Origin: Chitinophagaceae bacterium
Lineage (GTDB): Bacteria; Bacteroidota; Bacteroidia; Chitinophagales; Chitinophagaceae
Direction of reading: 5' to 3'
DNA length: 64,000 nt
Assembly (NCBI GenBank): GCA_023957155.1
Contig: JAMLHK010000006.1
Location: 124,001-188,000, forward strand
Under the pieces are notes generated by a model. It did not search any database and was not told the DNA's origin. It saw nothing but the letters and a program-made list of their open reading frames with translations. Positions 51,327-64,000 of the stretch are shown here, in pieces; position 1 is the first letter of the stretch, and every line of letters begins with the position of its first letter. Made by a program: the position numbers and the translations under genes.

Positions 51327-54300
51327 TCATTTCACTTCTACCCATTTGCCTTTTACCCCGGCACTGATGGTCTCATCATACATTGCTTCACAGTATGCGC
51401 CGGGTAAGAAATATCTTCCTTTATATGCTGCGTTCAGCATCACGTAATAGGTAAGGGTTTCGCCTTCTTTAATATCAAAATGCGTATACACCCGGTCATC
51501 ACGGATGTCGAGGTAATTATAGGGAGAAGAAGTATAGCTCCCTTCGTTATTTAACATACGGGTATTGAGTATTTCCCATCCGCCAGGGAAAAGCTGGGTC
51601 AGCGTCATGTTGCGGTATTTACCCCTGATGCCCGGATTGCGGATGCTTACCCTGGCTACAAAATCTGTTCCCTGTTCGATGCTTTCTGTGTTTACCGGGT
51701 TCCCGTTTAAGGTTACATAATCTACTTTTACAGATAACACATCGGGGTTGTTCTTCACTTCTGTTTCTTCCCCGGTAAGCGGCTGCCCCTGTATGATCAG
51801 CCGTGCATATAATATGTTTGTTCCTTTATTGATAACCGTGATTTTTTTATTGTTATCCGTCAGGCTCACCGGGATTTGTATCACCGGGGATGCAGAGCTG
51901 ATGTTCATGCTTTTTCCATTAACACCTGCAGCTGCCTGAATTTTCTTCCCGTCATTCGTATCGGTTCCGCAATATGCCGCAATAGCGATCAGGCTGTAGG
52001 CCGTGGTTTGGGTACTGTACCAGTTATCGGTAGCCAGCCGGGCCGTAACCACTTTCAGCACCTCACTGGCTTCTTTTCGTTTATTCATTAACGTGAGTGC
52101 TTCAAGCACCATCGCTTCATCACGCAGTCCCGAGCCATAGGAAATACCCGGCATCTGGCGTTCTTTAAAGGAATACGGTAACCCGGCAATTAAATCTGAT
52201 GCCACCTCTTGTTGTCCGGTCAGCTGATAGGCAGCGGCTAATCTCCACCCTGCTTCCGGCGACAGGTATTTGAATTCTTTCAGCCGGTTCATAGCGCCCA
52301 ACTCGGGGGCTTTGGCTAAAGCCAGCAGGTAAAGGCGATATGCCTGGGTCAGATCGCCGCCATAAAAGTTTGTGGTGGAAGGCATCCAGCGGGTTGCCTT
52401 ATTTCGCTGGTAGATCAGCCATTGCTGCAATAGCTCCGCCGGAACGATATATCCTTTCTCCCTGGCTTTAAGTAGAAAGTGTCCGGCATAGCTGGTGCCC
52501 CATTCATCGCTTTCCGCCAGTCCCGGCCAATAGCTGAACCCGCCATCCGGAAGCTGAAAATTTTTATACCGCTCAATACCGGCACGGATGTTTCTTTCCG
52601 TTTCCGCTTTTTTGCGGTCGCTTAGATCGGTTAACTGGCTGAGCACTAACTGGGGAAATACGGCAGAGGTAATTTGCTCAATACATCCATGCGGATATTG
52701 TATTAAATAGTCTAATCTTTTTTCGAGGTTCACAGGAGGTATGCCGGATAGCTCAAGCGTAGCTTTTCCGTTACCTGGTATGCCTAAAGGGATCGCTGTT
52801 TCATTCCATTGCTGCCCGGCGTGAAGCTCAGATGCCGCTACACGGGTCATTACCGGGTTCGGGTTGCGAACATCCAGCTCCACCTCGTAGGTTGCTTTTT
52901 CACTACCGCCTGAAGCCGTGAGCTGTACTTTACCCACGCCGGTATTTTCTTTCACTTTTACATCAAAGTAGAGCATCTTTTCTCCCGGAGAGGTAAAATC
53001 TACCTGTTGGGAAGCGTTACCCACGGTTTCCAGGTAGGCATTGCTATGAAGTGTTACGGTAACACGGGATATGTTTTTCTCCATGGCAAAAACCGTAACG
53101 GGCAGTTTAATGTTTTCCGTTGGACTTAACACCCGGGGCAGCGTGCCGAGGAGCATCAGCGGTTTTTTTACCGTGATTGTTTTTTCGGAGAAGCCGTAGG
53201 CATTTCCTCCGGAGGCAACAACCATCGTTCTTACTGAGCCGATATAGGGAGGTAATTGGAAGCGGTGGGTTTGCTTTTCTCCCTTTTTTAAATGAAATGG
53301 CCCGAGGTATTTAACTACGGGCTTGAAGCGGTTAGCCCGGCTTTCTTTGGCTCCTCCGCCTGCTGTTTCATCGCCTCCAATGGTTAATATCCGCTCAAGT
53401 TCCGCTCCCCACGCGCCGATTACGTTGTCGAACATATCCCAGCTTTTTACACCAAGCGCTTCTCTTGCAAAAAAGGCATCGTGCGGGTTGGGTGTCTTAA
53501 AGCGGGTAAGATCAAGCAGCCCGTCGTCTACAATGGCTACGCAATACGTCATAGGCAGTCCCGATGTTTCGGAAACGGTGATGTCTGTTTGTTGCTCGGG
53601 GCGTATAACATCCGGCATCTGTATCACCGGTTTGATCACGGTGCTTTTATCTTCAACCAATATGGGAATGACACCGTACATCCGAATGGGCAGATCATTT
53701 ATGGTTTGGGCATGAGGTTGTATCAGGCTTACATTGGCATAGATATTGGGCGCCATGCCGGCTTCTGCTTTAAAGGTATATGGTGTTTGACCGTCCTGCA
53801 TATCCAGCCAGTCTGTTTTAATAACCCTGCTGCCCGATTCAATGCTGATCAATGCCCGGCTGCCTTTACTGCCGGGTATTTGCAGGGTAATATTGTCTCC
53901 TACGTTATACTTCTCTTTATCGGAAGTAAAAGACAGCATGGCTGCTGCGGAAGGATCATCGGTATTGCCGCGGGTTTGCCACCAGGGATCATCAAAGTAT
54001 ACCACCTGTCCTGTTGTATGCCTGCTGCCGAGATCCCTGACCAAAACGAGGTAGCGGCCCCATTCACCACCCGGTGCGGATAAATTCCATTTACCCGAGC
54101 CGTTGGTTAAGCGAACGGTATCCTTCTTTAGTAATTTGTTATACGTGTTTTGTGTAAAATTGCTGAAGCCATCGCCGGTATTATCCCACCACCAGCGCCA
54201 GCTTACACGGTAAAGCGTTACTTCCATCCGTTGTGTTCCGGGTAGTGCATTCCCTTTTGCATCTACATTTACAACAGGCAGCTCATAGTTTTTATCGGTC

Positions 54301-56906
54301 AATAAAAATCCCCAGGGCTTCTGTCCCTCCGGAATACGGATGCCTGCGTAGCTTTTATAGGGGCTGTAGGGGATTACCATGTTGTCTACGCTGAATGCTC
54401 CACCGGGTTCGAACACTTTTATAAGCAGGCTGGCATTGAGCATACCCGGCGCATTTTTTATAGCGCCGAATGCGGTATTTACCCGGGCTTCACCCTGTTC
54501 ATTCAACCGGTTGTCAAAGATCGTTTTCATTTCAGTAGTATACCCCGAGGTGGGATCATCAAAATCATAGCCGGGGTATTTTTTGAAAACTGTTTTCCGT
54601 GCATATAGTGAAGCATCAATTTTAGCTTCGAGATTTTTTGCCGGTGCGCCAAACAACCATTGCGACTTTAAGGTACCGCCCGGTATACCATCGGTGCCTA
54701 AAACGGGATCATTGCCGAAATCCAGCGCGATCTTCAGGCGGTTGGGCATTACCGTTTCCACTTTTAGTCTTTTTTCAAAAACTGCACCACCCACTTTAAT
54801 CCTGGCCAGCCAGTTGCCTGTGGGAGAACTTACATCGGTGGACGTAGTAAACAGGTAAAAGCCGTGCTGGGCAGAGGTTTCCACCATCCGTTTATATAAC
54901 TGCCCCTGGGGGGTAATTAAATTTAACTCAACAGGATGGTCTTTAGGTAGTTTGCCGGCTTTGTCTTCCAGGATAAAGTTAATGTACATCGTATCGCCCG
55001 GTCTCCATACCCCGCGTTCTCCGAAAATAAAACCCTTAAGCCCGTTTCTTACCTCTATCCCCGATACATCAAAGCGGCTTAACAGGAGGGAGTTGCCGTC
55101 ATCTAATTTCAGATATCCTTTTTCGTTCCCTTTTTTGGCAATTAACAGGTAAGGTTTTTTGGGCAGGTTAAGATTAGCCATCCCGTTTTTATCACTCTTC
55201 GTCTTAATAAGCACCTGTTGCTGGTAATCGAGCAGTTCCAGCGTAACATCGCTCATGGGTTGTGCCGTAAGAATATCCGTTACTGCAATAACCATGCTGT
55301 TATCATTAGCTCTTTTAGCGGTAAGCCCGATATTGGAAGCAATGATGTTGCGGCTTGCCCATCTTTCTTTGTTATAGTAGGAAGGGCTGCAGGGATTGTC
55401 GCGCTGCTTCCAGTTATACCCGTAAGGATAATAAGCGTTATATACTTTCCAGAAGCCATCTTCGCTGTCTGAGGGTTCTCCTTCGCTACCGGTATACCAG
55501 TTGTAATATTCGTTATCTTCATCATCCTCTTCTTTGTTTGCGGTATGACAGGTATATAAAGAGTATTCCGGCCGAAAGCCTATCGTTACATGATAAATAG
55601 CGCCCGGCTCAGTTTTCAGGTACTGATCTATGTCTAATGAGAACTTTTGTTTGCGGTGCAGGTCGAGTGTTTTGTCGTTATCTAACCGGATCGTCTGCTG
55701 TACAACGGGTGTGGCTACACGCCGGAGGTCATATTCTCCATCGTAGTTATTTGACTGGAAAAACTGGGGGATATTATTCTCATAGATTTTAATGATGCTG
55801 ATATCCACCGCGTTGAGGTTAATTGTTTCAAATGGCAGTACCAGCTTGCCGGCGTTGGGAAGGATTACGCCCCGTCCCCGCATGGTAACGGAAGGCAGCC
55901 GGTTTTCAAAAAACAGGTTTGCCGTAAATGATTTATCTAACCTGTTGCCCCATACATTTTGTATTCCTTCATTAGCAGTGACGGTGTAGTTGCCTTCAAA
56001 ATTGTCGGGCACATATAATTTTACTTCGCTGCCGTCCATACTATAGCTGAGATCGGATTGCTGGCTTACCGTGATCAGCCCGTTCAGTTGCTGGCCGGTA
56101 GCAATGGCTTCGGAGAATTGAACAAGGATATAATTTTCCATCTCCTGTACACTCCGGATATCCAGTACTTTAAAATCGCCTATGGCCGGTATTTCCACAT
56201 TTTTACTTCCTTTTTCCTTTAGTCCCAGTGGTGTTCCGTCCCACTGTAGCTGCAGCGGGGATGCGGTTGTACCGCGTTTAATATTTCCTATAATGAATTG
56301 GTGGGTGCGGCTGCTTTCATTATGCTCCCATTTTATGGTGGCCGGCTTATCCAGGTACCGGGCGGTCAGCAATTTTTCTATATCTGCGGTTGATTCCATA
56401 TCTGCCGTTTCTATTGCACCGGAGAAGATCATGGTTTCCTTTGAATTTCCTTCTGCTTTCAGCCCGTTTTCTATTAGCAGGAATTCGGGCTTTGTTGCCT
56501 GTACGTTAAAGGTAAAGCTGGAAAAATTCTCGGGAACATCGGCGGCTTTACCCAGGTTAAAACGTACGGTATACATTTGTCCCGGGCTGAGGTATTCATC
56601 AGGTTTAAATTCTATCGTTCTTGCATCTGTCCAGTAAGCTTTGCCTTTTACCGAAGGCGTAAAGGAAAACATCGGATCTTTTAACGTCTCATTCAGCGTA
56701 TGTGTGGAAGGGGTTTCGGATGCTAAGCGTATCCGTATGGCAGACGTTTTTGATATTACTCCTGAAGTGTATCCTTCAATATACCTGCTGAAAGCCGGGT
56801 CAATAGAGTTTCTTTTTTCTTTTTGCTTACAGGCAAAGAATACAAAGGAGAATAATAATATCAGCGTGCAGGGCTGCACTATTCCGTATTTTAAAAGTTT
56901 CATCAT
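51327..56906 (-). CDS. yfhM: Bacterial alpha-2-macroglobulin family lipoprotein
   Basis: 1859 residues. A lipoprotein signal with lipobox FFAC stands at residues about 15-26. Several macroglobulin-like domains follow, including FIFGERGVWRPGDTMYINFILED (MG3-like), then the thioester domain with the intact CxEQ motif PHGCIEQITSAV (Cys1408, Gln1411) and helical YKNFQLPDGGFSYWPGL, ending in a receptor-binding-type domain. The thioester can trap attacking proteases covalently. In Gram-negatives it works with PbpC as a periplasmic guard. It starts the yfhM-pbpC operon. Confidence 0.94.
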   Translation of the reverse strand: MMKLLKYGIVQPCTLILLFSFVFFACKQKEKRNSIDPAFSRYIEGYTSGVISKTSAIRIRLASETPSTHTLNETLKDPMFSFTPSVKGKAYWTDARTIEFKPDEYLSPGQMYTVRFNLGKAADVPENFSSFTFNVQATKPEFLLIENGLKAEGNSKETMIFSGAIETADMESTADIEKLLTARYLDKPATIKWEHNESSRTHQFIIGNIKRGTTASPLQLQWDGTPLGLKEKGSKNVEIPAIGDFKVLDIRSVQEMENYILVQFSEAIATGQQLNGLITVSQQSDLSYSMDGSEVKLYVPDNFEGNYTVTANEGIQNVWGNRLDKSFTANLFFENRLPSVTMRGRGVILPNAGKLVLPFETINLNAVDISIIKIYENNIPQFFQSNNYDGEYDLRRVATPVVQQTIRLDNDKTLDLHRKQKFSLDIDQYLKTEPGAIYHVTIGFRPEYSLYTCHTANKEEDDEDNEYYNWYTGSEGEPSDSEDGFWKVYNAYYPYGYNWKQRDNPCSPSYYNKERWASRNIIASNIGLTAKRANDNSMVIAVTDILTAQPMSDVTLELLDYQQQVLIKTKSDKNGMANLNLPKKPYLLIAKKGNEKGYLKLDDGNSLLLSRFDVSGIEVRNGLKGFIFGERGVWRPGDTMYINFILEDKAGKLPKDHPVELNLITPQGQLYKRMVETSAQHGFYLFTTSTDVSSPTGNWLARIKVGGAVFEKRLKVETVMPNRLKIALDFGNDPVLGTDGIPGGTLKSQWLFGAPAKNLEAKIDASLYARKTVFKKYPGYDFDDPTSGYTTEMKTIFDNRLNEQGEARVNTAFGAIKNAPGMLNASLLIKVFEPGGAFSVDNMVIPYSPYKSYAGIRIPEGQKPWGFLLTDKNYELPVVNVDAKGNALPGTQRMEVTLYRVSWRWWWDNTGDGFSNFTQNTYNKLLKKDTVRLTNGSGKWNLSAPGGEWGRYLVLVRDLGSRHTTGQVVYFDDPWWQTRGNTDDPSAAAMLSFTSDKEKYNVGDNITLQIPGSKGSRALISIESGSRVIKTDWLDMQDGQTPYTFKAEAGMAPNIYANVSLIQPHAQTINDLPIRMYGVIPILVEDKSTVIKPVIQMPDVIRPEQQTDITVSETSGLPMTYCVAIVDDGLLDLTRFKTPNPHDAFFAREALGVKSWDMFDNVIGAWGAELERILTIGGDETAGGGAKESRANRFKPVVKYLGPFHLKKGEKQTHRFQLPPYIGSVRTMVVASGGNAYGFSEKTITVKKPLMLLGTLPRVLSPTENIKLPVTVFAMEKNISRVTVTLHSNAYLETVGNASQQVDFTSPGEKMLYFDVKVKENTGVGKVQLTASGGSEKATYEVELDVRNPNPVMTRVAASELHAGQQWNETAIPLGIPGNGKATLELSGIPPVNLEKRLDYLIQYPHGCIEQITSAVFPQLVLSQLTDLSDRKKAETERNIRAGIERYKNFQLPDGGFSYWPGLAESDEWGTSYAGHFLLKAREKGYIVPAELLQQWLIYQRNKATRWMPSTTNFYGGDLTQAYRLYLLALAKAPELGAMNRLKEFKYLSPEAGWRLAAAYQLTGQQEVASDLIAGLPYSFKERQMPGISYGSGLRDEAMVLEALTLMNKRKEASEVLKVVTARLATDNWYSTQTTAYSLIAIAAYCGTDTNDGKKIQAAAGVNGKSMNISSASPVIQIPVSLTDNNKKITVINKGTNILYARLIIQGQPLTGEETEVKNNPDVLSVKVDYVTLNGNPVNTESIEQGTDFVARVSIRNPGIRGKYRNMTLTQLFPGGWEILNTRMLNNEGSYTSSPYNYLDIRDDRVYTHFDIKEGETLTYYVMLNAAYKGRYFLPGAYCEAMYDETISAGVKGKWVEVK

Positions 56907-57590: not shown

Positions 57591-58082
57591 ATGAACAGGT
57601 GGAAAAAGGCAGGTATAGTATTTATCATCATCTTCTTGGTTATCCAGATCCCGGCATTTACGCCTGAAAAAAACAATAGCGATGAAGAGCCGGTAGATGA
57701 TATTACCGCTGCGTACGATGTACCGATGGATATACTGATGCACCTGTATAATGCCTGCTATGATTGTCATTCCAACTATACCAAAGCCTATCCCTGGTAT
57801 TATCATATACAGCCTGTGAGCTGGTGGATGGACTGGCATATACGTGAAGGGAAGAAGGAATTAAATTTTTCTGAATTTGCCGCCTATGCCCCGGGTAAGG
57901 TAGCCCGGAAATATAAAGAAATAGAAGAAATGATGGAGAAGAAAGCGATGCCATTGAAATCTTACCTGCTGGTACATGATGAAGCGAAACTGAGCGATGA
58001 TGAGTACCGCGATATTGCCGTATGGGCTAAAAAAATGCAGGAAGATGTATCGGCGAAAGCAAATGCGGGGCAGCAACCGTAA
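57591..58082 (+). CDS. Haem-binding domain protein (cytochrome c-like)
   Basis: 163 residues. An N-terminal membrane anchor (residues 6-22, KAGIVFIIIFLVIQIPA) precedes a haem_bd domain with a single haem c motif CYDCHSN (Cys56, Cys59, His60), then YPWYYHIQPVSWWMDWHI and KSYLLVHDEAKLSDDEYRDIAVW. These proteins are exported haem carriers of unknown partner. It is the last ordinary gene before the AT-rich island; the downstream region carries the strong hairpin at 58232-58271. Confidence 0.85.
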   Translation: MNRWKKAGIVFIIIFLVIQIPAFTPEKNNSDEEPVDDITAAYDVPMDILMHLYNACYDCHSNYTKAYPWYYHIQPVSWWMDWHIREGKKELNFSEFAAYAPGKVARKYKEIEEMMEKKAMPLKSYLLVHDEAKLSDDEYRDIAVWAKKMQEDVSAKANAGQQP

Positions 58083-58231
58083 GGGATTTGTAACCTCATT
58101 TGTATAGCTTTTACCCCATCAGCTTTTAGTGTGATTCTGATGATGTTAATACGTTTACCTCTCGGGAAGTTGTTTTATTCTGTTGCGTATCTGAGTTGCC
58201 AAAGCCATTGCACAAATGGTATGTATAATTT

Positions 58232-58271
58232 CTAAATGTCAAGTTTTTTGCACCAAAAACTTGACATTTAG
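58232..58271. repeat. Perfect 17-bp hairpin
   Basis: CTAAATGTCAAGTTTTT (58232-58248) pairs perfectly with its complement at 58255-58271 around a 6-base loop. It sits 150 bases after the haem-binding gene and 10 bases beyond the remnant gene stop, so it may be a terminator or a leftover of a mobile element end. Confidence 0.7.
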
Positions 58272-58280
58272 GATTGCCTA

Positions 58281-58460
58281 TTATTCGGTTCCAGCCCAAA
58301 ATCCACGATTGTTTTCCCTGGCTTCCTGTTGAAGTTTCGCAAAGTCGTCAGCAAATTTCATGTTGGGTGTAATGCCAACAATATAATTTTTGTTTGCTAA
58401 TAGGATTACCAACTGCCTGCCAATTCCTGATGTCGAACCTACAATGATTGCTTTCTTCAT
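58281..58460 (-). pseudogene. Chimeric remnant: SDR head joined to a nuclease-like tail
   Basis: A 59-codon frame. Residues 1-31 (MKKAIIVGSTSGIGRQL, then LLANKNYIVGIT) are the Rossmann beginning of a short-chain dehydrogenase, including the TSGIG glycine motif. Residues about 34-57 (FADDFAKLQQEARENNRGFW) look like the very end of a staphylococcal-nuclease-type protein. Neither domain is complete, so this is most likely a scar from a deletion joining two genes, and unlikely to be functional. Confidence 0.55.
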
Positions 58461-58500
58461 TTGAATATCAGGGTCTTTCTAAAGTGAAGGAGAATGGTTT

Positions 58501-58612
58501 AGGGCTTGGTGTAAGCGGGGATTTTTAACACTATTGCTGATTAGAATTACTACTGTTTGTTTTAAATCTTCCGTTCATTAGAAATTCGTCAGCCCCGCTT
58601 ACGCCAAACCCT
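58501..58612. repeat. 20-base inverted repeat pair
   Basis: AGGGCTTGGTGTAAGCGGGG at 58501-58520 matches the reverse complement of 58593-58612 at 18 of 20 positions, with 72 bases between. It lies directly outside the left end of the defence-like block. Confidence 0.6.
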
Positions 58613-58613
58613 T

Positions 58614-58628
58614 GTTGGCGGTAGTTTT
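58614..58628 (+). repeat. Left candidate island end repeat
   Basis: GTTGGCGGTAGTTTT. The same sequence, inverted and with two differences, is at 63390-63404. The two copies face each other and bracket the methyltransferase operon and its insertion sequence. Confidence 0.4.
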
Positions 58629-59364
58629 ATTTTTTAATTTTAGAAGCATATAATAATTCTTCAATTGTCATACGATATTGAAGTTTTATGTTATCAATGT
58701 CTTTCCTTTTAGCATTGTATTGTATTCGGTGAGCCGAAAAATTTCCAACTTGTCTAAACTTGTCTAATACTTCTAAACTGTCTTTTGATAAAGTATATGG
58801 CTTGTTACTACAAGTGTGATTGATTATGTAACTCAAATTTTTAAAACCATTATTATTGTCCGTTATTTGGTATTCTAACTTTACAGCTTCATAGGAATGA
58901 ATTAACAGTATTTCTAATAGCCGTCTCATTAGCACAGCACAACCATCAAAAATGTTGTTGTTGTATGATGCGTTAATCTGTTTTGCTATATTTTCTATGT
59001 ATCCACGAGTTGATTTAATTAAACTGTCGGGTAAAACAGTGTCATCTGTAAGAATTTCTTCACTAAGATTAGTTACAAAAGAAAATTTCGCTGACAATTC
59101 TTGAGAGTACTTACTTACAGGTTTATATGAATTAGGCTTTGTTCCTTTTGTTACATTCTTAGAGGCTCTCAAATCATTTTTAAGATATGTTTGATTATAT
59201 TTTGGCAAATCACAATCAACAAAACACTTATTTACTTCTGATAAAGTTAGTTCGGTTTGGGTAGTAGCATAATAATACCAAATGAAAGAAGTTGCAAGTT
59301 CTCTCTTCGTTGCATTTTCATTTATTAAAAGTTGTGCAAGTTTCTTAATCTTGTTCATTTTCAA
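58627..59364 (-). CDS. Unrecognised protein: winged-helix-like N-terminus and DUF4145/HEPN-like C-terminus
   Basis: 245 residues, last gene of the restriction-modification operon, overlapping the previous gene by 20 bases. Residues about 1-85 resemble a winged helix (ATKRELATSFIWYYYATTQ, then TYLKNDLRASKNVTKGTKPNSYKPV). Residues about 120-240 have the pattern of DUF4145-type HEPN domains: IFDGCAVLMRRLLEILLIHSYEAV and then LDKFRQVGNFSAHRIQY, with Arg204 and His212. HEPN proteins are often RNases or helpers in anti-phage systems. The Arg-His spacing (seven residues between) is longer than the classical R-x4-6-H, so catalysis is uncertain. Confidence 0.6.
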   Translation of the reverse strand: MKMNKIKKLAQLLINENATKRELATSFIWYYYATTQTELTLSEVNKCFVDCDLPKYNQTYLKNDLRASKNVTKGTKPNSYKPVSKYSQELSAKFSFVTNLSEEILTDDTVLPDSLIKSTRGYIENIAKQINASYNNNIFDGCAVLMRRLLEILLIHSYEAVKLEYQITDNNNGFKNLSYIINHTCSNKPYTLSKDSLEVLDKFRQVGNFSAHRIQYNAKRKDIDNIKLQYRMTIEELLYASKIKK

Positions 59365-59998
59365 TTTCTAAGTCATTATTATTTTCACTTGCTTCTTGAT
59401 TGGATACTTTAGTCTTCCTAACTCTTGGTTTCCTCTTCTTTGTTGTGGAATTACCGTTTAGGATATTGATTGATGCATCACAACCCGATTCAGTAATCAT
59501 TAATTCATCGTCCGTAAGGCTTGAAATGTAAAGTTTCTTTGTTAGGCTATTTAAGCTAACTGTCAATGCTTTGCGTCTGGAATCGCTAAATACTTTATGT
59601 TCTCTTAGTGTATCAAGAATAGATTGTCTTGTGAACGAATCTTTTCCGAAGTTTGAATTTATATAGCAAACAATTAGTATTACTTCAGGTTCAGATTTTG
59701 TGAGACCTTTTATTAGAACATCTTTCATTTGTATGGACTTCATATTATTCGGCAATAGTCCATTATGATTACTTACGTTTGGTAGGTCTTTGGGTTCTGC
59801 TAACACCAAATTATTTTGTTGGTAATGTATGTTCTGATTAATTACTTCCTTTTGAGAATTATCTGTCTGGGCAATCAATCCAAATTTGTCAAGCAAATAT
59901 TTTACAACTCTAATTTTTGCTGTATCATCAAGTCTTGACAATGCTCTTGAGCATTTCTCAATAGCGTCAGTTTCAAAATCGTCATCAAAATGTCTCAT
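59345..59998 (-). CDS. Unrecognised protein, winged-helix-like with basic tail
   Basis: 217 residues, third gene of the operon, 45 bases after the endonuclease gene. The first 40 residues contain a helix IEKCSRALSRLDDTAKIRVVKYLLDKFG that recurs at the N-terminus of many small phage- and island-borne proteins. Residues about 95-175 look like a winged helix (EPEVILIVCYINSNFGKDSFTRQSIL then VSLNSLTKKLYISSLTDDELMITESG). The tail is Lys/Arg-rich (TTKKRKPRVRKTK) and then acidic. DNA binding is plausible. I do not know the family. It ends inside the start of the next gene (20 bases overlap), which suggests translational coupling. Confidence 0.6.
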   Translation of the reverse strand: MRHFDDDFETDAIEKCSRALSRLDDTAKIRVVKYLLDKFGLIAQTDNSQKEVINQNIHYQQNNLVLAEPKDLPNVSNHNGLLPNNMKSIQMKDVLIKGLTKSEPEVILIVCYINSNFGKDSFTRQSILDTLREHKVFSDSRRKALTVSLNSLTKKLYISSLTDDELMITESGCDASINILNGNSTTKKRKPRVRKTKVSNQEASENNNDLEIENEQD

Positions 59999-60043
59999 AT
60001 TTTAGTATTTTAACTATCATTTAGTTTGTTTTGGGGAATAAAA

Positions 60044-60754
60044 CTAAAAAGAACTTTGGGATAACTTATTTATTTCTCTCGCAATCTCGTTTATTACTTC
60101 TTCGTTTTTGATTTTGTCGTCAATGCTGAAAACTATGAATACTTGTCCACAGAATTTTTTAGTAAAGTTGTCAAAACTTGCTTTCATTCGTTCTGTCGCT
60201 GAATAATTGCCAAAATTTGCTTTTGCTGTTACAGGTTTTATTTGAATACCAAATGCTTTGTCGCCAACCCAACCCAAATAATCAATGTCACCTGCGTGAT
60301 CAAGTTCGGGGTCGCTTTCTTCAAATTTTACATTCGGAAATTCTTTTGCCAAATTATCTTCAATGACAGATTTTTCACGAATAAAACTGTCAAAAGTTCT
60401 GTTGATTGTTAGGTTATGAATGTAATCAATACAGTCTTGTAATGTGAGTTGATTAAACGCTTCTGTCCATTCGGGAATTACGATTACTCTAATTTTTTCG
60501 TAAAGTCGTTCGCCCAATTCAGCTAAACTTTCTTTCGTTATTTTTATTGGTGTTTTGCCATCTGTGTTTGCATTTCCAAAATACCATTGTTCCCAATCTT
60601 CAATAGTTTTCGGCTGACATTCACGAATGAGAGCCATTACAGCACCAACCTTGTTTGGTCGTGAAAGTTGATAGGTTTGAGTTGCGTAATTGAGAACTTT
60701 TTCCTTTTTACCAAATTCCTTTGAATATCGTTTTATTACTTGTTTTTTAGCCAT
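60044..60754 (-). CDS. Type II restriction endonuclease, MjaI-like family
   Basis: 236 residues. It overlaps the methyltransferase by 8 bases. The sequence matches the pattern I remember for MjaI-type endonucleases (LGERLYEKIRVIVIPEWTEAF; LQDCIDYIHNLTINRTFDSFIREK; SDPELDHAGDIDYLG). A PD-(D/E)xK-like active site is seen as GDIDYLGWVGDKAFGIQIKP, with Asp156, Asp158, Gln171 and Lys173 in a D..QxK order. MjaI cuts CTAG, so CTAG is a possible target here, but that rests on family memory. It belongs with the methyltransferase upstream. Confidence 0.75.
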   Translation of the reverse strand: MAKKQVIKRYSKEFGKKEKVLNYATQTYQLSRPNKVGAVMALIRECQPKTIEDWEQWYFGNANTDGKTPIKITKESLAELGERLYEKIRVIVIPEWTEAFNQLTLQDCIDYIHNLTINRTFDSFIREKSVIEDNLAKEFPNVKFEESDPELDHAGDIDYLGWVGDKAFGIQIKPVTAKANFGNYSATERMKASFDNFTKKFCGQVFIVFSIDDKIKNEEVINEIAREINKLSQSSF

Positions 60755-62075
60755 TTTGTTGTTCTTGCAAGAGGTTTAAAAATTTGTTCTTGTATTTAAA
60801 ATCTATATCGCTGTCCACTTGCACCAAACCGTTCTTGACTAAATGAGCATTGATAAATGTTTTGTTTTCCAAATAGAGATAACACAACAAATTATTTTCG
60901 TTGTCGTGTTTTATATTGTCGTATTTCAAGAAAACTCGCTTCCCTTTCGTTTTGTCAATGATAAATTTTGTTGCTTTTCCGTTGATAATTGGGTCTTCTT
61001 TTATGCCAATGAGTTTTATTGTTAAGTCGTTGTTTAAGCGAATTTTTTCAGGGCTGATAACTTCTTTTACCGTATAAAGTTCTTCTCGTTTGGTTGAACT
61101 GTCTTTGTCAATCTTAGAACCAAACTGTAATTTTTTTACGTCAATTTTTTTGTCAAGCGTATGCGGGTCTTTGAAAATGTAAGGTTGTTTCTTGATTTCT
61201 TTTTCAAAGTCTGTTTTGATTGGTTGCTGTTCTATAAATTCATAAGTCGTTCCGTTCAAATCCTTTTGATGAATTTCCAGTTTCTCTTTGATGAATGGAA
61301 TAAATTCGGGATTGATTTCATAACCAACCGAATTTCTGTCCAAATTTTTTGAAGCCAATGCAGTTGTTCCGCTTCCCGCAAAAGGGTCAAGAACTGTTTC
61401 GCCAACGAATGAAAACATTTTAATTAAACGTTTCGGTAATTCTTCGGGAAACATTGCAATGTGGTTGTTTTGTCTTGCACCTGCAAAATTCCAATGTCCT
61501 GCAAAAAAGGTATTCCATTCTTCTGCGGTCATTTTGGAAAGCTCCTTTTGTTCTTTCGTTGGTTTGGGTGCATCACCCAACTTTTTGAAAACGAGAATAA
61601 ACTCGTAATCCAATTTCAAGATTCCGTTTCTTGGATACGGATATGAACCCATTTGAACGCCACCGCCCGTGGTGTTGGAAGTCGTAACTTTTTGCCAAAT
61701 GATTGCACCCATATAGTCAAAACCGATGTTCTCGCAGAATTTGATGATTTCTTCACGAATAGGAATGACTTTGTAACGTCCGTAATAAACTGCTCTTGCG
61801 AATTGGTCGCCAATGTTCACACATAACCTGCAACCGTTGTGAAGAGTACGGTAGCACTCTTTCCAAACTAAATTCAGGTTGTTGATGTAATTTTCGTAGT
61901 TGTCGTGAAAACCAATTTGGTTGTCTGTTCCGTAGTCTTTGAGTTGCCAATACGGTGGCGATGTAATAGCCAAATGCACCGAATTGTCGGGCAATTCCGC
62001 CATTTGTCTGCTGTCGCCATTTACTATTTTGTGGTGTGTATTCAATGCTAAATTCTTTGGTACAAAGTTAGTCAA
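60747..62075 (-). CDS. DNA methyltransferase (beta class, N4C/N6A) with degenerate SNase-like C-terminus
   Basis: 442 residues. Motif IV TSPPYW (residues 38-43) comes before the SAM-binding motif I DPFAGSGTT (230-238), the beta-class order; SPPY suggests N4-methylcytosine. Residues about 333-440 look like a staphylococcal nuclease domain (LYTVKEVISPEKIRL, TIKLIGIKED, FINAHLVKNGLVQV). Its key residues are changed: the GDT and R..D positions read SPEK and KLIGIK, and the G-R pair before the AYV strand is NN. It is therefore probably not a nuclease. The start is a TTG at 62075; an in-frame TAA at 62085-62087 excludes a longer start. An IS ends 17 bases before the start. Confidence 0.85.
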   Translation of the reverse strand: MTNFVPKNLALNTHHKIVNGDSRQMAELPDNSVHLAITSPPYWQLKDYGTDNQIGFHDNYENYINNLNLVWKECYRTLHNGCRLCVNIGDQFARAVYYGRYKVIPIREEIIKFCENIGFDYMGAIIWQKVTTSNTTGGGVQMGSYPYPRNGILKLDYEFILVFKKLGDAPKPTKEQKELSKMTAEEWNTFFAGHWNFAGARQNNHIAMFPEELPKRLIKMFSFVGETVLDPFAGSGTTALASKNLDRNSVGYEINPEFIPFIKEKLEIHQKDLNGTTYEFIEQQPIKTDFEKEIKKQPYIFKDPHTLDKKIDVKKLQFGSKIDKDSSTKREELYTVKEVISPEKIRLNNDLTIKLIGIKEDPIINGKATKFIIDKTKGKRVFLKYDNIKHDNENNLLCYLYLENKTFINAHLVKNGLVQVDSDIDFKYKNKFLNLLQEQQNG

Positions 62076-62081
62076 AATGTA

Positions 62082-62091
62082 GGGTTATGGT
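62082..62091 (+). repeat. Target-site duplication of the IS, left copy
   Basis: GGGTTATGGT directly before the left IS end; identical to 63327-63336. The match is perfect over 10 bases, a usual duplication length for ISAs1-family elements. Confidence 0.85.
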
Positions 62092-63326
62092 CAGGGATTT
62101 CGCTTTTAAAGTTTGAGGACTAATTCCCTGTAGGCATCGTTGTGAGCCGCCCTAAGTCTTTTGAGGGGTTTGGTTTTAATTACGGTCTTCTCATTTTCAA
62201 TGAGTCCTAAAGCAACCTTATTAATAATATTGGAGTTTTGAGCTGAGTTGCCTATTTTTTTCAATTGTCCGTCCTCATTGTAGAGTACATCCAGTTCCCA
62301 GTGAAGATTGTTTTCAATTGACCAATGCGACCTGACAGCATCGTTTAACAGCGTTGCATCAGGCTTTAGTGATGATATATAATAGCGATATTCCTGCGAC
62401 CGAACGCCTGTTTTCTTAATGGTGCGAAAAGATTGGATGCGCACTAAAGTGTTGAGTTTTGCCCACTGCTCCCTATCCTGAAAGTACACATCTTTAACAG
62501 CAATGGTTTCGCATATTCTTTTCTCTATCCTGCCATGACCCATAGCGCTTTTTTCAGATACACATCTTAGTGAGGTCCCGTTAAAAATGTCTTCTATCTG
62601 GTCTTTTAAATACTTCTGATTATCCTTCACCTGAAGTATGTAGTCAGCTTTCTTCTCTACTATCTTTTTAGCGATTTCTTTCTGACAGCCCATAGCATCA
62701 ATGGTAACAATGCTGCCTTCCAGAAAAAGAATATCCAGCAGGGCGGGTATGGCTGTAATCTCATTTTCTTTTTCTGATACCTCTACCTGACCTATGCACA
62801 GCCTGTTGCCCGCACAAAAGGCGCTGACAATGTGTTGAGGGTACTTACCTCCCAAAGACGCCGCCCCCCTTATCGTTTTGCCGTCAATAGGCACTACTTT
62901 ACCCTTTGCCCTCTCTGTCACAGCCTGCACCCATTCAAAAAAGCATTTGGAAAATGCCTGGGGCGCTAATGCACTAAAAAAATCACTGATGGCATCATGA
63001 GAGGGTATTTTCTTAAACGGATAGAATTTGCGCAGCCAGTCTGTTTTTAAATTGCCAAACTCTTCTATTGTTGTCCATGCTGTACAACCGCATACAGAGG
63101 CTGAAATAGTTAAAAATATTATCTCTTCAAGACTGTAAAGGATATTGCCTTTGCTAAGGCGACGGGGATCTTTCAATGATTGAAAACTTTCTTTGAATAC
63201 AATTAGTGGACTGTACTCCTCCTGGGTAGTAGTGGTCATTTTTTTTTATATGGCTGACCTTAGCCGTTATCACACAAATATACTATTGGTCTCTTTATCT
63301 AAAAAATCTTAAAAGCGAAATCCCTG
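62092..63326 (-). mobile_element. ISAs1-family insertion sequence, complete
   Basis: A 1235-base element with perfect 18-base terminal inverted repeats (CAGGGATTTCGCTTTTAA at 62092-62109 and its complement at 63309-63326), one intact transposase gene and perfect 10-base target duplications. The ends and duplication show no decay, so insertion was recent. It sits 6 bases upstream of the left duplication-to-methyltransferase junction, with the transposase reading in the same direction as the methyltransferase. Confidence 0.93.
62106..63239 (-). CDS. ISAs1-family transposase (DDE)
   Basis: 377 residues. Conserved pieces are VPIDGKTIRGAASLGGK, the first catalytic Asp in IDGK; VTIDAMGCQKEIAKKIVEKKADYIL with the second Asp; and SHWSIENNLHWELDVLYNED with the catalytic Glu region. 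This DGKTIRG...DAMGCQ...HW.IEN pattern is the ISAs1 family signature. The gene fills the element almost end to end; its stop is within the left inverted repeat zone. No frameshift is seen, so the element should be active. The start is an ATG at 63239. Confidence 0.95.
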   Translation of the reverse strand: MTTTTQEEYSPLIVFKESFQSLKDPRRLSKGNILYSLEEIIFLTISASVCGCTAWTTIEEFGNLKTDWLRKFYPFKKIPSHDAISDFFSALAPQAFSKCFFEWVQAVTERAKGKVVPIDGKTIRGAASLGGKYPQHIVSAFCAGNRLCIGQVEVSEKENEITAIPALLDILFLEGSIVTIDAMGCQKEIAKKIVEKKADYILQVKDNQKYLKDQIEDIFNGTSLRCVSEKSAMGHGRIEKRICETIAVKDVYFQDREQWAKLNTLVRIQSFRTIKKTGVRSQEYRYYISSLKPDATLLNDAVRSHWSIENNLHWELDVLYNEDGQLKKIGNSAQNSNIINKVALGLIENEKTVIKTKPLKRLRAAHNDAYRELVLKL

Positions 63327-63336
63327 GGGTTATGGT
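63327..63336 (+). repeat. Target-site duplication of the IS, right copy
   Basis: GGGTTATGGT directly after the right IS end, identical to 62082-62091. Confidence 0.85.
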
Positions 63337-63389
63337 GTAGAAAGTTAGTAAGGTCTTTGTCTGTCCCCTGATGTTTGGTGTGTCGCCCA

Positions 63390-63404
63390 AAAATTACCGC
63401 TAAC
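63390..63404 (-). repeat. Right candidate island end repeat
   Basis: On the minus strand GTTAGCGGTAATTTT, against GTTGGCGGTAGTTTT at 58614-58628: 13 of 15 bases agree, in opposite orientation. It lies about 50 bases from the end of the phosphopantetheinyl transferase gene. Confidence 0.4.
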
Positions 63405-63453
63405 GTATCGCTTCGTGCTATACCAGGGTGTTCGTTATCTGCCGTTAAACGGA

Positions 63454-64000
63454 TCAGGTGAGTACCCAGACCAGGCACAGCGCTTTAAAGTTAACAAAAG
63501 GGAGGGATAATGCCGTTGGTTTTTCTTTTAAAAACAGGCCCTGCATATTCCCTTCTCCCGGGATGGAGCCTATATCTTCGGGTGGTTCTATCCTGATCTG
63601 GTTAGAAAAGTTAACTTCACCGTTGCCGTACCATTTAAAAACGGCTTCTTTAGCGCTCCAGAGCAGTGTTAGTTTGCGCAGGTAAGTGTTTTCAGCTGCC
63701 ATATTTTCAGCAGGCATCATATCCCTCCCGTTTTCCAAAATGTTTAATTCCTGCTGATGTAGAAATTTATGTTGTACGCGCTGCAGCTTAGAAGTAGGAA
63801 TTTCGATATCAATGCCTACCCGGTGTGAACGGCTTACGATAGCAGCGGCATAATTGCCACAGTGAGAAATGGAGAAGTGAAAGGCCTCATCAGGTAGGAA
63901 CGGCTTTTTGGTGTTGGCTATTTTAATCAGCGCATGGGGAAATTCCGGGAACAGGAAACGCAGCAGGTAACGGCCTGCCAAATGTTGCAGCCGCTTATGC
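63454..64000 (-). CDS. 4'-phosphopantetheinyl transferase (Sfp type), 5' end beyond the window
   Basis: At least 182 residues; the frame stays open to the window edge, reading KRLQHLAGRYLLRFLFPEFP. The first start codon seen inside the window (a TTG) is not needed. Signature pieces are FHFSISHCGNYAAAIVS, VGIDIEI (metal-binding Asp and Glu) and WSAKEAVFKWYG, in which the K-E-A is the CoA-binding signature. The enzyme attaches phosphopantetheine to acyl or peptidyl carrier proteins. It is the chromosomal gene on the right of the island. Confidence 0.88.
   Translation of the reverse strand, partial: HKRLQHLAGRYLLRFLFPEFPHALIKIANTKKPFLPDEAFHFSISHCGNYAAAIVSRSHRVGIDIEIPTSKLQRVQHKFLHQQELNILENGRDMMPAENMAAENTYLRKLTLLWSAKEAVFKWYGNGEVNFSNQIRIEPPEDIGSIPGEGNMQGLFLKEKPTALSLPFVNFKALCLVWVLT

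Follow-up and report, generated by a model that had tools for sequence, protein, structure and literature searches.

Introduction

The coupling of HEPN-domain proteins to restriction–modification (R–M) systems is already known. HEPN genes in R–M operons were proposed in 2013 to provide a second-line, suicidal response, and the HEPN family DUF4145 was listed as ‘In operon with R-M, TerD, McrB/C and symE toxin’ (Anantharaman 2013, PMC3710099); the theme also appears in PMC12839542. Here, we describe a locus with a DUF4145/HEPN protein in an R–M operon, as in that proposal, from a Chitinophagaceae bacterium (GenBank assembly GCA_023957155.1, contig JAMLHK010000006.1, positions 124,001 to 188,000); this stretch of 64,000 nucleotides is called the window. 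On its minus strand, a DNA methyltransferase (MTase) gene, M, and a restriction endonuclease gene, R, are followed by two small genes, A (protein P3) and B (protein P4, the DUF4145/HEPN protein).

Several described systems resemble this arrangement in part. PrrC, the guard of the type Ic R–M system PrrI, is like B a HEPN protein linked to an R–M operon and a possible backup, but it carries a fused ABC ATPase and its target is tRNA-Lys (PMC3710099), whereas A–B has no ATPase match and is without the HEPN motif Rx4-6H; B, at 245 amino acids (aa), has DUF4145 as its sole Pfam match and no ABC-ATPase fusion by Pfam or AlphaFold2. PD-lambda-5, an RM+Abi system (Vassallo 2022, PMC9519451), is weakly similar to relatives of B (PADLOC models of PD-Lambda-5_A match six of 15 members in one case, best E 7e-5, and one member in another, E 6.1e-6), but A and B are separate small genes. 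BxaP, a BREX-associated and experimentally tested defence protein, shares the DUF4145 domain with B but is encoded by one gene and has a weak HEAT-like C-terminal match (PMC10799925). R–M controller proteins are small and of the XRE helix-turn-helix (HTH) type, for which neither P3 nor P4 has a Pfam match. The PADLOC candidate-defence family PDC-M34 (model PDC-M34A) is matched by two B partners of the DUF5343 class (E 1.2e-40 at locus L157 and 6.4e-12 at L133), and not by the window's A. Compared with DUF4145 as treated in PMC3710099, B nearly always occurs with a partner gene and lacks the HEPN motif Rx4-6H, and the pair is not described in the accessible part of that paper. In a literature search whose scope took in neither bioRxiv preprints nor most subscription papers, we found no description of the A–B pair and no paper naming PDC-M34 or DUF5343; DUF4145 was named in seven papers.

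On balance, we favour the reading of A–B as a portable module of two genes, serving defence or abortive infection, that stands, in this window, behind a probable CTAG-type R–M pair in an acquired-looking block.

The A–B pair across genomes

Screening 84,980 species genomes by means of a B alignment and one strict peptide pattern yielded at least 76 confirmed B loci, a lower bound because only that pattern was used. The hosts, by record title, are Bacteroidota, Pseudomonadota, Cyanobacteria, Chloroflexi, Acidobacteria, Gemmatimonadota, Firmicutes, and others. When a viral copy (L111) is added, 70 of the 77 loci have a nearby partner gene of one of five classes, which makes A–B an adjacent co-directional two-gene unit; this figure is a tally, the class profiles having been built from those same partners. 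Partners lie at most 431 bp from B (the farthest at L168), and one (L139) is on the opposite strand. Independent support for the pairing comes from BLAST clustering, in which the partner genes form clusters present at 38, 19, and 11 loci, against at most six for any other neighbour family (neighbour counts drop L140 as a duplicate of L111 and leave out open reading frames [ORFs] below 100 aa). Partner class also follows the tree of B proteins, with eight changes against a shuffled mean of 25.2 and none of 200 shuffles reaching so few; the 29 short B proteins in the tree all pair with the DUF5343 class. Because partners cluster at many loci and their class follows the B tree, A and B must be travelling together; their pairing is near-constant. 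The tree and its alignment have 65 rows, namely the window, 63 loci, and L042; 14 of the 77 loci were left out by hand as near-duplicate, truncated, or of uncertain start (L111, L123, L130, L137, L141, L146, L147, L149, L151, L159, L162, L169, L173, and L176). Genes in the survey were called by a simple script that takes the longest ORF, so some of their starts are over-extended.

The five partner classes are the P3 type, two winged-helix types (one of which follows B), a zinc-ribbon type, and DUF5343. The P3 type is confined, among the 77 loci, to the window and L116, the closest relative of the pair (63% for B and 54% for A). Within the DUF5343 class, 14 of 16 proteins scanned match PF17278 and a strand-helix-like element is conserved at the C-terminus; a sequence search of the PDB with this class gave only a weak match to Cas12m (E 0.004). 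The zinc-ribbon class aligns in hhalign with the class that follows B (probability 87) and with a profile of P3 and its L116 relative (class A11, probability 94). The zinc-ribbon profile also matches two B proteins (E 7.6e-6 and 1.1e-4), which points to a possible relationship between the winged helix of A and that of B. One partner, at L132, is unclassed and by eye resembles that of the phage contig L194.

HEPN toxins are classic components of toxin–antitoxin systems, and A–B could be a type II system of this sort, with A neutralising a HEPN-fold toxin B and island stabilisation as its main role. The pair consists of two small genes, at 49 of 77 loci the upstream partner either overlaps B by no more than 14 bp or stops within 9 bp of its start, A is predicted to combine a DNA-binding-type domain with disordered stretches, and toxicity has been reported for HEPN proteins without the motif (PMC3710099). 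We nevertheless regard this as rather unlikely: one partner class has the reverse order, with A after B; five loci (L160, L165, L167, L174, and L183) have B but no recognised partner, and L176 has a B fragment only; and L159 has an intact B next to a partner broken into two ORFs.

Individual loci vary further. At L165, L167, and L183, B carries a long N-terminal extension of coiled-coil appearance and no recognised separate partner, and at L167 it adjoins a gene that looks Mrr-like by eye. Three-gene versions, with genes of two different partner classes before B, occur at L189 (6734-8630) and L191 (6527-8414). L116 has a PIN-like-looking gene after B (by eye), and at L042 (653-1828) a HEPN/RES-type protein (PF18870, PF08808) is encoded divergently beside the A–B pair of genome G099.

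The pair is also found in phage DNA. Among 2.9 million IMG/VR contigs scanned, three carry it (neighbouring genes identified by eye): in L111 it lies beside a phage integrase, on apparently the same stretch as the Pseudomonas locus L140; in L193 it follows tail and lysis-type genes; and in L194 it stands just before the terminase genes. Searches of IMG/VR with P3 alone or with P3 and L116, and of a phage collection with P4 and with the B of L140, returned nothing. In plasmids, the B of L040 has a weak match in Ochrobactrum (E 4e-4) with a gene in the partner position, and P4 has one weak match in Halorubrum (E 2e-3); plasmid searches with P3 and with the B of L041 gave nothing.

Neighbouring R–M genes

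At seven of the 76 B loci, the unit has as its immediate same-strand neighbour a recognised R–M gene, of about five kinds in all; the window is an eighth case. R–M genes were called by Pfam name (the MTases of L172 and L173 by an MTase profile), and systematic screening was keyed to recognisable MTases. At L136 a C5 MTase and an EcoO109I-like endonuclease precede A and B, and at L155 an MTase and an NgoMIV-like endonuclease do so. A Res-type helicase, or its remains, and a Mod-type MTase precede the pair at L172, its near copy L173, and L178, whereas at L187 the order is A, B, MTase. At L165 a C5 MTase lies 235 bp from B, with no partner gene. The initial annotation of the window, made by a model from its letters and ORFs, had named recurrence behind MjaI-like pairs in unrelated hosts as a sign of one system; what is borne out is a repeated adjacency of A–B to R–M genes of unrelated types in such hosts. 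As a side observation, a Vsr gene begins 10 bp after B at L179.

The proximity can be expressed as a contrast. MTase genes make up 7 of 361 genes within 3 kb of the unit and 0 of 401 farther away (p 0.005) under a looser motif, which was set after a strict motif had missed Pfam-confirmed MTases, which misses L136, and which counts both near copies L172 and L173. With profiles built in part from the near matches, the figures are 9 of 361 and 1 of 401. In PADLOC, MTases are the commonest matches of the near set (up to five of 138 proteins per model), and the far set (99 proteins) has no MTase among the best 25 of 48 families.

That A and B regulate the restriction system was one option in the initial annotation, and they might do so in the manner of controller proteins; both proteins have predicted winged helices and the pair sits at the 3′ end of the R–M genes. 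We now consider this very improbable, given that no adjacent R–M gene was seen at 69 of 76 loci, that Pfam finds no controller-type HTH in either protein, and that the neighbouring R–M types are unrelated.

Predicted structures of the two proteins

B matches DUF4145 (PF13643) marginally, at 23.6 bits against a gathering cut-off of 23.1 (E 5e-5). AlphaFold2 models it with a mean predicted local distance difference test (pLDDT) score of 94.8 as a winged helix and a helical domain joined by a short linker (limits in Table 1), and the earlier guess of a winged helix plus a DUF4145/HEPN-like domain agrees with this model, in which a HEPN helical fold is predicted. In Foldseek, the HEPN protein AF0298 (2hsb) was matched with probability 0.99, E 0.77, and a template modelling (TM) score of 0.74 on the target; the top row was a MarR protein (E 0.44), Csm6 and HepT were also in the list, and no match reached E ≤ 0.001. 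A sequence search of the PDB with B gave nothing useful (best E 0.53).

Four residues, His212, Arg147, Glu151, and Cys142, never vary in the alignment of 65 B proteins, and a fifth, Arg231, is kept in 64 of them. Five residues before His212 stands Gly (61 proteins) or Ala (four), and eight residues before it, at position 204, a Lys or Arg (63 of 65).

For A, the winged helix is predicted with a pLDDT of about 90 within an overall value of 68.6; a helical hairpin is also modelled and the remainder is mostly disordered. Foldseek places it among winged helices of the MarR, LmrR, and PadR types (best E 0.024, none at E ≤ 0.001), and Pfam gave a sub-threshold match only. The prediction for A, a winged helix accompanied by a flexible linker, agrees with the winged-helix protein guessed at the outset.

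The MjaI-type pair as a module apart from A–B

M and R form an ordinary MjaI-type pair by Pfam and PADLOC, in line with their first identification as methyltransferase and endonuclease. R matches RE_MjaI (PF09568) at 97.8 bits (cut-off 22.7, E 7.8e-28) and the PADLOC model REase_II (E 1.3e-93). M matches N6_N4_Mtase (PF01555, E 2e-42) and, over nearly the full length, PADLOC MTase_II (E 6.5e-179); its C-terminus has an SNase-like domain (PF00565, E 1.4e-6), a tail that seems usual for the family because the PADLOC model covers nearly the full length. By eye, M has the motifs TSPPY and DPFAGSGTT, so that a beta-type (T)SPPY methylase adjoins R; we take the (T)SPPY motif to mark an N4-methylcytosine (m4C) methylase.

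The tetranucleotide CTAG occurs twice in the window against 64 expected (ratio 0.03). Its ratio is 0.21 across 59 other regions with an RE_MjaI match and 0.66 across the 76 B loci, two sets that differ taxonomically, the genomes of the second being unchecked for such enzymes. A CTAG-pair pattern is found 0 times in the genome itself and the reversed (GATC) pattern 78 times, a weak control. These low CTAG ratios are in keeping with CTAG as the target, and M.MjaI is grouped with the CTAG m4C methylases (PMC5867850). M–R is an MjaI-type type II R–M pair that most likely methylates and cuts CTAG, the target being indicated indirectly. GGCC is likewise low in the window (113 against 230 expected).

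Other MjaI-type systems share with this locus the match to PF09568 and a relative of M, but differ in what follows R. In a phylum sample of 395 genomes, 63 (the present one included) have an RE_MjaI match; 58 of the 62 others supplied the 59 regions, some of them cut off after a few kb by a contig edge, and weak or fragment matches in G248, G010, G107, and G320 were left out. A relative of M is present in 56 of the 59 (phmmer), and A or B in none (phmmer, and profiles of B and the five partner classes). In the same 395 genomes, A was matched in three and B in five, the present genome included in each; the weak matches of G083 and G011 seem spurious. B is present in four genomes of a class-level sample, likewise of 395. 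Conversely, the flanks of L116 contain no relative of M or R. A fixed four-gene M–R–A–B system, as the initial annotation had envisaged, is rejected on the absence of A and B from all 59 other MjaI-type regions read, and it also sits poorly with L116 and with R–M genes being adjacent at only 7 of 76 loci. A and B occur mostly away from recognised R–M genes, which the initial annotation had set as a refutation of its proposal, and the tight version of that proposal fails. That the four genes are two modules, M–R and A–B, is well supported.

Genomic setting of the locus

The four ORFs, their strand, and their spacing (an 8-bp overlap of M and R, a 45-bp gap between R and A, and a 20-bp overlap of A and B) were found as first described, and so was the AT-richness of the block: the guanine-plus-cytosine (GC) content is 0.37 in M, 0.34 in R, 0.32 in A, and 0.29 in B against 0.44 across the window. 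Two starts probably need revision (Table 1). Seven near homologues of M begin with M(K/T)T..H..IINGDSR, which places the probable start at TTG 62045 rather than TTG 62075. For B, the closest relative begins at the ATG two codons past the TTG that opens the ORF, and this ATG is the likely start; the A/B overlap would then be 14 bp.

Table 1. Features of the locus, with positions in the window and the basis of each assignment
Feature	Position	Strand	Description and basis
M	60747..62045 (ORF 60747-62075)	-	MjaI-type DNA methyltransferase with SNase-like C-terminal domain; Pfam, PADLOC, homologue N-termini (start probable)
R	60044..60754	-	MjaI-type restriction endonuclease; PF09568, PADLOC REase_II
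A (P3)	59345..59998	-	Predicted helical hairpin (6-38) and winged helix (91-180) joined by a disordered linker, then a basic/acidic tail, also disordered; AlphaFold2
B (P4)	58627..59358 (alternative TTG start 59364)	-	Predicted winged helix ~3-98 and HEPN-fold DUF4145 domain 113-240; PF13643, AlphaFold2 (start likely)
ISAs1-family insertion sequence	62092..63326	-	Directly upstream of M; NF033564, E 4e-105
Imperfect inverted repeat	58501..58612		Arms of 20 nt with 72 nt between them, immediately 3′ of B
Extra block	58083..63453		Between Haem_bd gene and 4′-phosphopantetheinyl transferase gene

The block looks horizontally acquired. It looks like an insertion because matches to its flanking genes sit close together in congeners. 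In G740, the Haem_bd and phosphopantetheinyl transferase matches are 42 bp apart (flanks aligned), and seven others (G731, G732, G733, G735, G736, G737, and G739) have 117 to 610 bp between the transferase match and that to the next large gene of the window, 51327-56906, which by eye is alpha-2-macroglobulin-like. Elsewhere in the genome (G000:C2:71939-78303), a second phosphopantetheinyl transferase and a relative of gene 51327-56906 are spaced as in G739; this copy is either a paralogue or a contaminating contig.

The ISAs1 element, absent from the initial annotation, has 23-nt terminal inverted repeats; its target duplication of 10 bp, GGGTTATGGT, occupies 62082-62091 and 63327-63336, for a total span of 62082-63336. 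It lies 46 bp upstream of the likely M start, and the R–M promoter may therefore be affected. A scan for promoters and terminators was near chance level (18 against 17.0 and 5 against 4.0, respectively), and Rfam has no match in 57900-63600. Downstream of B, the imperfect inverted repeat has a part-copy at C5:20894-20939 of the same genome; an integron cassette or attC-like site was considered here and rejected, as the repeat ends misfit the attC consensus and there is one genomic part-copy. A perfect 17-nt inverted repeat lies at 58232-58271, and the minus-strand stretch 58200-58626 resembles the start of a short-chain dehydrogenase (by eye); this stretch and the repeats are perhaps junction debris of mobile DNA.

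A possible defence role

A defence role for A–B is likely; in its favour are the pairing with B partners, the phage contigs, the repeated R–M neighbourhood, and the PDC-M34A match of two partners, but several of our results weigh against the module as proposed. Under the strict motif, the contrast between near and far MTases is 3 of 361 against 0 of 401 (p 0.11). Neither P3 nor P4 has a PADLOC match (P3 none at E up to 1), and the PDC-M34 models matched none of the 15 B proteins scanned. The hhalign probabilities of P3 and its L116 relative against partner classes A9, A10, and A12 are 0.3, 14, and 0.2; the P3 profile matches the zinc-ribbon class only, and homology to the DUF5343 class is not established. 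On the B tree, the R–M label is scattered (eight changes against a shuffled mean of 8.6, with 180 of 500 shuffles as low; nine rows, L171 and L179 counted). Finally, Rx4-6H, and with it the HEPN catalytic Arg, is missing from all 65 aligned B proteins.

The scatter can be taken in two ways. A label distributed as if shuffled indicates repeated independent neighbourhood rather than inheritance, and the R–M links of A–B look independent; it also fits chance placement in defence-rich DNA. Under the second interpretation, an independent accessory pair, functionally unconnected to the R–M genes, would have come to lie beside them in a block that is mobile or rich in defence genes. The absence of A–B from the 59 other MjaI-type regions and the 69 of 76 loci with no adjacent R–M gene recognised agree with such mere neighbourhood, but the order M–R–A–B or Res–Mod–A–B recurs with unrelated R–M genes on one strand, at gaps of -4 to about 200 bp, and the near/far contrast under the looser motif points the same way. 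Mere neighbourhood is thus a serious possibility, if in our view a doubtful one.

The missing motif bears on what B does. DUF4145 is described as mostly conserving the HEPN motif (80%), some HEPN families lack the Arg and other basic residues could substitute for it, and RNA binding without cutting has been proposed for some HEPN domains lacking the motif (PMC3710099). By motif, B would fall outside the catalytic HEPN RNases, so that RNase action is hypothetical; RNA cutting, and with it the RNA-directed defence first suggested for the two genes, is weakened because Rx4-6H is absent from every aligned B protein. B could instead be a non-catalytic HEPN protein, with A–B forming a nucleic-acid-binding or transcription-type complex such as that suggested for MtlR and having no defence role. 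That proposal of binding without catalysis and the missing motif are compatible with this, but the invariant His212, Arg147, Glu151, and Cys142 and the basic residue at 204 look like an active or binding site, and the pair occurs in phage and R–M contexts; we think this alternative unlikely.

For the favoured reading of A–B as a portable defence module, a mechanism can be sketched. A would be a DNA-binding, sensing, or restraining partner, and B a winged-helix HEPN effector held inactive in an A–B complex. Phage infection or restriction failure would release B, which might then stop growth by acting on RNA or translation, so that A–B would serve as a second layer of the abortive-infection type. 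A broader version, which we put forward as tentative and would not ourselves expect to hold, is that of an unnamed, widespread immune module in which interchangeable partners (winged-helix, DUF5343, or zinc-ribbon) restrain a HEPN effector with a rebuilt site (R147, E151, H212), sensing the failure of restriction on unrelated R–M operons and also working alone.

With these results, a single HEPN family gains DUF5343 and further unannotated proteins as its partners, and one may ask how a HEPN domain functions when its catalytic arginine is missing. Since the pair is found both away from R–M genes and behind several unrelated R–M systems, the hypothesis that HEPN proteins act as a backup to restriction becomes testable.

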